Below, piece after piece: positions 32,108-61,926 of a stretch of DNA of 64,000 nucleotides. The stretch comes from Chromatiales bacterium. Its GTDB lineage: Bacteria > Pseudomonadota > Gammaproteobacteria > Chromatiales > Chromatiaceae. Made by a program: the position numbers and the translations under genes. Each line of letters begins with the position of its first letter. Within the stretch, counting starts at the first letter, position 1. Under the pieces are notes generated by a model. It was not told where the DNA came from and did not search any database. It saw only the letters and a list, made by a program, of their open reading frames with translations. The stretch lies in contig JANTHJ010000005.1 in NCBI GenBank assembly GCA_024762475.1, positions 1 to 64,000 on the forward strand. The letters are read 5' to 3'.

Positions 32108-32580
32108 GCGCCGCGGTCGAGGTCCCCGCAGAGATCCGGGGGTTGCTGTTGCCGTTGAACGGGCGCTCGCTGCTGTTGCCGAACGCGGCAGTCGCCGAGA
32201 TCATCGACTTCCATAGGCTGGTGCCGGTTCCGGACGCCCCTGAGTGGGTGGCGGGCGTCACCGACTGGCGCCAGCGCCGGTTGCCGGTGGTGCGTTTCGA
32301 GCCATTCCTGGGACAGGAGGTGGCCGTCAGCCAGCGCCAGCGGATCGTGGTCTGCCATACGCTCAACCCGGAGGCGAGGCGGCCCTTTATCGGTATCGCC
32401 GCCTCCGCTATTCCACGCCTGGTGCGCTTACGCGAGGAGTCCCTGGCAGGTGAGGTACTGCAGGACGAGTGGAAGGCTCTGCCATTGTGCGCCGCATTGC
32501 GTGTCGACGGCCAGCCGGCGCTGATCCCCGACCTGCCCGCCCTGGAGGAGCGTCTGGCGGAGGTTGCGGCAATCTCCTAG
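32104..32580 (+). CDS. CheW-domain protein (ChpC-like)
   Basis: TTG start overlapping the chpA stop; GVTDWRQRRLPVVRFEPFLG. The TAG stop lies in the terminal repeat of a MITE-like element. Confidence 0.8.
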   Translation: MSAAVEVPAEIRGLLLPLNGRSLLLPNAAVAEIIDFHRLVPVPDAPEWVAGVTDWRQRRLPVVRFEPFLGQEVAVSQRQRIVVCHTLNPEARRPFIGIAASAIPRLVRLREESLAGEVLQDEWKALPLCAALRVDGQPALIPDLPALEERLAEVAAIS

Positions 32581-36102: not shown

Positions 36103-36125
36103 GGTTTCACTCCCTGGTCAAAACG

Positions 36126-36202
36126 TGAGTGAGCGCCGTTGAAATCGTCTGTGGCATGGATCCGAGCCTGGCCCCTTCGGGTTGCAGCGCTCCTCGGATC
36201 GG
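36126..36202 (-). promoter_or_regulatory. SAH (S-adenosylhomocysteine) riboswitch
   Basis: Minus strand CCGATCCGAGGAGCGCTGCAACCCGAAGGGGCCAGGCTCGGATCC...AACGGCGCTCAC matches the conserved SAH aptamer core; directly upstream of ahcY. Confidence 0.93.
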
Positions 36203-56555: not shown

Positions 56556-58762
<2,207 letters not shown>

Positions 58763-58764
58763 GT

Positions 58765-59015
58765 CTAGCCCGAATATTTCACCCGGTCGCTGGAAAATAC
58801 TGATAACTCGCTGGTCGCCAAAGACATTCTTCGTCTATCAGCAGGGAACGAAATGTTACCAGGCCAACGCTGGACGCGCCCTCGCACCGATCTGGCCGCC
58901 CTCGAGCGGTATTTCCTTCCTCATCAATAGGCTGGCTATTATTCGGTCGGAAATCCACTCGAGAACACCCATCTCGGCACGAGCATCGCGTCCCCGGGTG
59001 AAATATCCGGGCTAG
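58765..59015 (-). repeat. MITE-like element copy B (251 bp, intact 22-bp terminal inverted repeats)
   Basis: CTAGCCCGAATATTTCACCCGG ... CCGGGTGAAATATCCGGGCTAG (one mismatch between arms); no full transposase ORF; inverted relative to copy A. Confidence 0.9.
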
Positions 59016-59019
59016 GAGC

Positions 59020-59056
59020 AAAAAAATGACCCCGCGGCGGTCCATGCTGCGGGGTC
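59020..59056 (-). terminator. Intrinsic terminator of sRNA-2
   Basis: Minus strand GACCCCGC AGC ATGGACC GCC GCGGGGTC ATTTTTTT. Confidence 0.9.
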
Positions 59057-59143
59057 TGTGTCGCCCGATGCGGTACGGTTTGGCAAACCTTCATCCCTGG
59101 CCAGTCCCTGGCTCGGTCTCGTCCCTGACTTCCTGCTGGCGAC
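59020..59143 (-). ncRNA. Predicted CsrB/RsmY-type CsrA(RsmA)-sequestering sRNA (sRNA-2)
   Basis: GGA motifs on the minus strand at 59133-31, 59124-22, 59107-05, 59096-94 and 59043-41, four in CAGGA/CAGGGA context; hairpin GCCAG-GGA-CTGGC; terminator GACCCCGC...GCGGGGTCATTTTTTT with GGA in the loop; UAS/promoter shared with sRNA-1. Confidence 0.62.
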
Positions 59144-59199
59144 AGTGGAAGTGTGGGCCACGGAGATTGCCTTGCCATTAGGCCAAGGGCGCAATTGCT

Positions 59200-59217
59200 T
59201 GTAGGAATTATCTGAAC
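59200..59217 (-). promoter_or_regulatory. GacA/UvrY-like upstream activating element of sRNA-2
   Basis: Minus strand GTTCAG-ATAATT-CCTACA; 16/17 identity with the element upstream of sRNA-1. Confidence 0.55.
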
Positions 59218-59225
59218 CTGCGGGC

Positions 59226-59255
59226 AAAAAGAAACCGGCCACTGGGCCGGTTCTC
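59226..59255 (-). terminator. rpsT intrinsic terminator
   Basis: Minus strand AACCGGCC-cagt-GGCCGGTT-TC-TTTTT. Confidence 0.9.
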
Positions 59256-59277: not shown

Positions 59278-59538
59278 TCACAGAGACTTGATCCGGGCGC
59301 TCAGGCGACTCTTGTGGCGCGCGGCCTTGTTCTTGTGGATCAGGCCCTTGCAGGCGAGGCGGTCGAGCAGTGGCACGGCCTTCTTGTAGGCCTCCTGGGC
59401 ACCTTCCTTGTCACCCGCAGCGATGGCGTTGATCGTCTTCTTGAGCTCAGTGCGCATCATGCTGCGACGGCTCGCATTTTGCTGACGGTGCTTTTCCGCC
59501 TGACGGGCGCGCTTGCGTGCTTGGGGGGAATTGGCCAC
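59278..59538 (-). CDS. rpsT: 30S ribosomal protein S20
   Basis: [36 protein letters not shown]. Confidence 0.97.
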
Positions 59539-61267: not shown

Positions 61268-61746
61268 TGCCGGGGTTCCTGCTGGTCAGTCTGATCGTAT
61301 TGATCCTCGATCAACTCAGCAAGTGGTGGATACTGCAGCACTTCCACGAACACGAGGTGTTGGTGGTCTGGCCCGTCTTCAATCTCACCCTGGCCTTCAA
61401 CAAGGGGGCCGCCTTCAGTTTTCTGGCGGATGCGGGCGGCTGGCAGCACTATCTGTTCGTGGGGCTGGCGGTGTTGGTCTCGCTGTTCCTGGTGATCTGG
61501 CTATGGCGCCTGCCGAAAGGGCGTCTGCTCGAGGCCTGGGGGCTGGCGCTGATCCTGGGCGGTGCCCTGGGCAACCTCGTCGATCGCCTGTTGCGCGGCC
61601 AGGTGGTGGATTTCCTGCAGTGGCACTGGGAGGCGCACTACTTTCCTTCCTTCAACCTCGCGGATAGCGCCATTACGCTGGGTGTCGTGCTGCTGTTGCT
61701 GGATGCACTACGCGGAGAGTCGCGCAAACAGGGTAATGTCAGATAA
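61267..61746 (+). CDS. lspA: Lipoprotein signal peptidase
   Basis: LDQLSKWWIL; FNKGAAFSFLAD; GGALGNLVDRLLRGQVVDFL; FNLADSAI; ATG at 61267 overlaps the murJ stop. Confidence 0.95.
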   Translation: MPGFLLVSLIVLILDQLSKWWILQHFHEHEVLVVWPVFNLTLAFNKGAAFSFLADAGGWQHYLFVGLAVLVSLFLVIWLWRLPKGRLLEAWGLALILGGALGNLVDRLLRGQVVDFLQWHWEAHYFPSFNLADSAITLGVVLLLLDALRGESRKQGNVR

Positions 61747-61754
61747 ATCCTACA
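61737..61754 (+). promoter_or_regulatory. GacA/UvrY-like upstream activating element of sRNA-1
   Basis: TGTCAG-ATAAAT-CCTACA, 5/6 + 5/6 match to TGTAAG-N6-CTTACA; overlaps the lspA stop. Confidence 0.65.
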
Positions 61755-61805: not shown

Positions 61806-61926
61806 TCTCCACCGCTGCAGGGATGGAGACCGGACAGGAGGTCCGGCAGCCAAGGAGGCACTCTTCAAAGGATTGAATAGACCGGCGGTGTAAGCCCGCT
61901 CCCACGGATGGGGGGCGGGCTTTTTT
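61806..61926 (+). ncRNA. Predicted CsrB/RsmZ-type CsrA(RsmA)-sequestering sRNA (sRNA-1)
   Basis: Hairpins TCTCCA-ccgctgcAGGGA-TGGAGA, CCGGAC-AGGAG-GTCCGG, GCC-AAGGA-GGC, TTCAA-AGGA-TTGAA, and terminator GCCCGC..CCCA-CGGA-TGGG..GCGGGC-TTTTTT; no coding potential. Confidence 0.75.
61894..61926 (+). terminator. Intrinsic terminator of sRNA-1 (GGA in loop)
   Basis: GCCCGC-tCCCA-CGGA-TGGGgg-GCGGGC-TTTTTT. Confidence 0.92.

Follow-up and report, generated by a model that had tools for sequence, protein, structure and literature searches.

The stretch of DNA between rpsT and proB in this Chromatiales bacterium raises the question whether it encodes a small RNA of its own, or whether it belongs to the transcript of the preceding ribosomal protein gene. 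In the window, that is the whole stretch of 64,000 nucleotides that was analysed, this region is non-coding and carries five GGA motifs on the minus strand. The most probable answer, to which we assign a probability of about 90%, is that it encodes an sRNA of about 125 nt, here termed sRNA1, which would be activated by UvrY and would sequester CsrA in the manner of the Csr/Rsm RNAs. The features of the locus are as follows.

59278 to 59538, minus strand: rpsT (ribosomal protein S20), the upstream neighbour of sRNA1.
59232 to 59253, minus strand: rpsT terminator stem-loop, which parts the sRNA1 unit from rpsT.
59200 to 59217, minus strand: GacA/UvrY-type box of sRNA1, GTTCAG-ATAATT-CCTACA, ending 55 nt before the RNA start.
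59020 to 59144, minus strand: predicted Csr/Rsm-type sRNA gene (sRNA1), 125 nt, with a predicted start near 59144.
59138 to 59144, minus strand: 5' arm of the closing stem, UGUCGCC, pairing with 59065-59059.
59094 to 59135, minus strand: group of four CAGG(G)A motifs that may serve as CsrA sites, with a conserved GGA register.
59059 to 59065, minus strand: 3' arm of the closing stem, GGCGACA, pairing with 59138-59144.
59020 to 59056, minus strand: intrinsic terminator of sRNA1, with a GGA in its loop.
57638 to 58762, plus strand: proB, convergent, downstream of sRNA1.

An earlier note on this DNA had described two minus-strand terminators around a non-coding stretch, four CAGG(G)A motifs in less than 45 nt and a fifth GGA in the loop of the terminal terminator. 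All of these elements are indeed present, the rpsT stem at 59253-59232 and the second terminator at 59056-59020. The first C of the CAGGA/CAGGGA cluster is at 59135 and its four motifs lie within 42 nt; the five GGA motifs start at 59133, 59124, 59107, 59096 and 59043, the last being the one in the terminator loop. The proposed sRNA itself stood, with its predicted length moving from about 120 to 125 nt and its start from about 59143 to 59144. The number of GGA motifs is unremarkable when taken alone, as 6.5% of 125-nt segments contain at least five. Four CAGG(G)A motifs were found in 0.07% of such segments, and apart from sRNA1 no region on the two strands of the 64-kb window has four of them in 45 nt.

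The predicted fold of 59144-59020 has an energy of -48.6 kcal/mol, compared to -39.9 kcal/mol in shuffled sequences (z -2.4), and it contains both the UGUCGCC/GGCGACA helix and a terminator loop that presents a GGA (GACCCCGCAGC-AUGGACC-GCCGCGGGGUC-A-U7). This terminator was missing from the list that a terminator scan returned for the window, probably because of its internal mismatch. The covariance model R2 scored sRNA1 at 79.3 bits (E 2e-18), sRNA1 being one of the rows on which R2 was trained. Closer examination revealed that, within its genus, the copy in the window deviates most from the common pattern: the left half-site of its box, GTTCAG, carries a mismatch, GCCAACCAAGCC, a motif that is conserved in the relatives, is interrupted, and a sigma-70 promoter scan listed no good -10 hexamer. 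In view of these irregularities, the sRNA1 copy of the window may be weaker than its siblings. Between the sRNA1 terminator and proB lies an element of about 250 bp (58766-59014) that resembles a miniature transposon, with 18-bp terminal inverted repeats, TAGCCCGGATATTTCACC, that differ by one mismatch; a third copy of its repeat end is found at 32578 on the plus strand.

The immediate surroundings could also be read in a different way. sRNA1 comes directly after the terminator of rpsT and has the same orientation, and the sigma-70 scan of this region gave the rpsT promoter as its sole result, with no strong promoter between rpsT and sRNA1. The RNA might then be a fragment of the rpsT 3'-UTR that arises by read-through or processing and has no start of its own. 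Against this view stand the strong rpsT terminator that intervenes and the arrangement of the locus in relatives, for which the stretch 3' of rpsT was read in 30 loci. sRNA1 was found after rpsT and/or flanking proB in 6 of the 8 genomes of the host's genus, and in other genera as well. The unit directly follows rpsT in G001, G002 and G005 of the host's genus and in G015, while it lies between rpsT and proB in G069, G078, G109, G114, G135 and G168, which belong to other genera, and in the Chromatiales MAG IP29b_bin.61 (L081). In two further genomes (G003 and G006) it adjoins proB at a distance of about 4.4 kb from rpsT and has its own activator box, and in other genera it also occurs at loci with no rpsT in the 1.5 kb searched. 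The independence from rpsT that the earlier note had assumed is thus borne out by these relatives, and the GGA motifs, whose absence from orthologous loci had been named beforehand as an outcome that would speak against the proposal, are kept. In G004, sRNA1 is absent from the rpsT-proB locus, where the gap is too short.

The box is found at the same position in the relatives of sRNA1. Among the best new matches of the search, 25 of 26 have an upstream palindrome with at most two mismatches, compared to 1 of 26 of the downstream stretches, and this palindrome lay outside the covariance model. The consensus in the family, TGTAGG/TGTCAG-N6-CCTACA, matches the GacA/UvrY site TGTAAG-N6-CTTACA (PMC4950607; PMC4682653). 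In these best matches, 54-56 nt separate the end of the box from the RNA start, the exception being genus g8 (76 nt). Since an RNA that travels with its box away from rpsT in many genera, at a fixed distance between the two, is not what the end of an rpsT transcript would look like, we regard an origin from the rpsT 3'-UTR as extremely unlikely.

To what extent sRNA1 occurs beyond this locus was addressed with R1, a covariance model built from five copies of the RNA. R1 had matches at E≤1 in 104 of the 146 genomes of the host's family (about 70%), many of them at E<1e-10 and often several per genome. Among 369 genomes sampled across the class, hardly any outside this family gave strong matches, the clear exception being G048 (E 6.7e-12, with a perfect box at 55 nt). 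The R2 matches with E values of about 1e-3 to 1e-5 in genomes of other families mostly lacked GGA repeats or a box and were not counted. Judged by these sequence matches, the sRNA1 family is widespread in one bacterial family. A locus in another genus (L161; G090:C7, about 1043876-1045040) carries four tandem copies of an sRNA1-type RNA.

The alignment of 35 R1 matches (A5) allowed an assessment of the structure. As A5 was fitted to the structure, its pair counts lean towards that structure, and with this proviso the closing helix (UGUCGYC/GRCGACA) is 100% paired with compensatory changes, the terminator helix is 98.7% paired with changes on both sides in 9 of 11 pairs, and the two helices together have 99.2% of their cells paired, both-side changes somewhere in 11 of 17 pairs, and 103 both-side-changed cells compared to 31 expected from shuffles. 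When the helix partners were slid against each other as a control, pairing fell to 27-45%. The RNAs contain 3-7 GGA motifs each (mean 5.5, compared to 2.5 in shuffles), including the one in the terminator loop, which is kept across the relatives. Within these RNAs, the predicted unpaired fraction is 0.61 for GGA and 0.10 for GG[CGT]. An A stands two bases upstream in 161 of the 194 GGA sites, which thereby read ANGGA, the sequence preferred by CsrA (PMC7366521). Several such sites that are predicted to be largely unpaired, five in the window copy, in a non-coding unit with its own terminator are what characterises the Csr/Rsm class.

These data also bear on the idea that the region is a short coding gene or merely a spacer between terminators that is rich in GGA by chance. 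Open frames of 76-88 codons do overlap sRNA1, but they differ between homologues, no frame is kept, and the lengths spread over all three residues modulo 3; a coding function was rejected on frame and length. Neither the covariation in the stems nor the upstream box would be expected of a spacer, and we consider the chance of either explanation to be close to nil.

If sRNA1 acts as proposed, its protein partners should be encoded in the same genome. The host genome contains one CsrA, which scores well over the NCBIfam cut-offs, and a UvrY-like regulator whose score of 272.7 bits is just under the NCBIfam cut-off of 280 bits and which is encoded two genes before uvrC. This arrangement, with the regulator upstream of uvrC, is known from UvrY/GacA loci and backs the assignment. 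CsrA and UvrY/GacA in one genome, together with a GacA/UvrY-type palindrome upstream of the RNA, which in the window copy has the left-half mismatch, are likewise characteristic of the Csr/Rsm class. CsrA exceeded the cut-off in 131 of the 146 genomes of the host's family and was not found in the 92%-complete genome of G004. In the whole 3-Mb host genome, TSAG-N6-CCTACA occurs at six sites: three precede sRNA1-type RNAs, another follows an rpiA-like gene at the end of a contig, and the remaining two are located elsewhere.

The second sRNA in the window, between lspA and ribF, had been put forward in the earlier note as a partner of sRNA1, and it turned out to be real, with the same architecture and activator box.

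61737 to 61754, plus strand: activating box of sRNA2, TGTCAG-ATAAAT-CCTACA, ending 52 nt before the RNA start.
61807 to 61926, plus strand: sRNA2, the sibling between lspA and ribF.

R2, the training set of which did not include sRNA2, matched it in the window with an E value of 6.8e-8. In L081 and G168, sRNA2 is syntenic at lspA-ribF, on the strand opposite to sRNA1; the pair is therefore old. A third sRNA of this kind, on contig C106 of the host genome, is also preceded by a box. A model trained on sRNA2 and the C106 copy (R3) added sRNA2-type copies in G003, G005 and G006, together with a degraded copy in G007. The sRNA1 and sRNA2 types may be of common descent, or may share the architecture alone. 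The activator box near the end of contig C30 of G000 (L035), after the rpiA-like gene, probably marks where a fourth sRNA begins. In G004, contig C7 carries an sRNA copy downstream of sequence similar to the rpiA-like one.

The reduced relative G007 (1.9 Mb, 99% complete; contigs C22, C34 and C16, L226-L228), which belongs to the same genus as the host, illustrates what happens when the circuit decays. No CsrA was found over the cut-off, csrA being a recognisable but degraded remnant without a start; uvrY was undetected at E≤1e-50, and no box fits the search pattern. In its sRNA1 the start of the stem is joined almost directly to the terminator and the GGA domain is gone, and its sRNA2 has kept GGA motifs and lost a recognisable box. 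The joint decay of csrA, uvrY, boxes and GGA domain is as the proposed circuit predicts, albeit in one lineage, which makes it an illustration and not a statistical test.

One feature of the family goes beyond these elements. The stretch UUUGCCAACCAAGCC, located before the closing stem (about 59087-59060 on the minus strand of the window), is nearly invariant in A5, its conservation over the 35 sequences equals that of the GGA sites, and it is predicted to be partly unpaired. This could mean that the RNA mainly acts by base-pairing, or by binding another protein, through UUUGCCAACCAAGCC, and that CsrA sequestration is secondary. However, the window copy has an interruption in this stretch, and the sibling type does not keep it, while the GGA repeats, the box and the terminator GGA persist; the decay in G007, moreover, tracks csrA and uvrY. 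We therefore judge such a primary role to be very unlikely. Somewhat more room is left for an RNA with two functions, which would titrate CsrA and use UUUGCCAACCAAGCC to pair with a target RNA or to recruit a second factor, for example a decay enzyme, because no model of GGA sequestration needs a nearly invariant UUUGCCAACCAAGCC; this we regard as possible, though rather unlikely.

The Rfam CsrB/Rsm models, which the earlier note had proposed as a check, left sRNA1 unmatched. Indeed, no Rfam 15 family matched it, neither at gathering thresholds over the whole window nor at relaxed thresholds over the region, and 12 related loci gave no credible score at relaxed thresholds. Matches to His_leader, Hrs10 and other families fell below threshold and were rejected. 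As a positive control, the CsrB model (RF00018) found E. coli csrB at 380 bits. Elsewhere in the window, the Rfam scan detected a SAH riboswitch at 36124-36201 on the minus strand (61.7 bits).

Among the known systems, RsmY, RsmZ and RsmX of Pseudomonas resemble sRNA1 in having several unpaired ANGGA sites, sibling copies, an intrinsic terminator and an upstream GacA box, TGTAAG-N6-CTTACA (PMC4950607; PMC7366521; PMC2375449). They differ in that the half-sites of the sRNA1 family are mostly TGTAGG/TGTCAG...CCTACA, that this family has its own closing stem (UGUCGYC...GRCGACA) and the conserved GCCAACCAAGCC, and that sRNA1 matches none of the Rfam models. CsrB and CsrC of enterobacteria sequester CsrA by repeated GGA motifs, the role predicted for sRNA1, and E. 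coli csrB is preceded by an 18-bp UvrY palindrome, TGTGAGAGATCTCTTACA (PMC4682653). CsrB is, however, about three times longer (369 nt), its palindrome is centred far upstream at -183/-182 (PMC4682653), compared to about 55 nt for the box of sRNA1, and R2 touched only the end of csrB weakly (16.9 bits). The literature contained no description of the sRNA1 family in a search that was incomplete, and predictions of the InvenireSRNA type (PMC5568370) may include it unnamed. sRNA1 is thus best called a new sequence family inside the known functional class Csr/Rsm.

Taken together, the following course of events may be envisaged for sRNA1, the transcription, UvrY dependence, CsrA binding and titrating action of which we infer from its sequence. 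Phosphorylated UvrY/GacA would bind the palindrome at 59217-59200 and activate the sRNA1 promoter, with transcription starting near 59144, as judged from the position of the box and from the relatives. According to the predicted fold, the 5' domain closed by UGUCGCC/GGCGACA would then present four GGA sites and the terminator loop a fifth, the two helices being supported by covariation. CsrA dimers would bind pairs of these sites, as other RNAs of this functional class suggest, and would thereby be titrated off their mRNA targets. sRNA1 would act alongside sRNA2, the third copy on C106 and a possible fourth one downstream of rpiA.

The sRNA1 family would represent the RNA component so far missing from the Csr circuit in the host's family. 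Sedimenticola-like bacteria and the symbiont Candidatus Thiobius zoothamnicola are members of this bacterial family, for which our incomplete literature search brought up no Csr sRNA described before. With a simple model, sRNA1-type genes can now be annotated in these genomes, which often contain two to four of them, and G007, which lost csrA, uvrY, boxes and GGA sites in parallel, can serve as a natural experiment on the circuit. In the lucinid symbiont Candidatus Thiodiazotropha endolucinida, which may lie outside the host's family, csrA tops the table of expressed genes at about 80,000 TPM, several times the level of dsrC (PMC13137333). This makes the state of its titrating RNAs a timely question.
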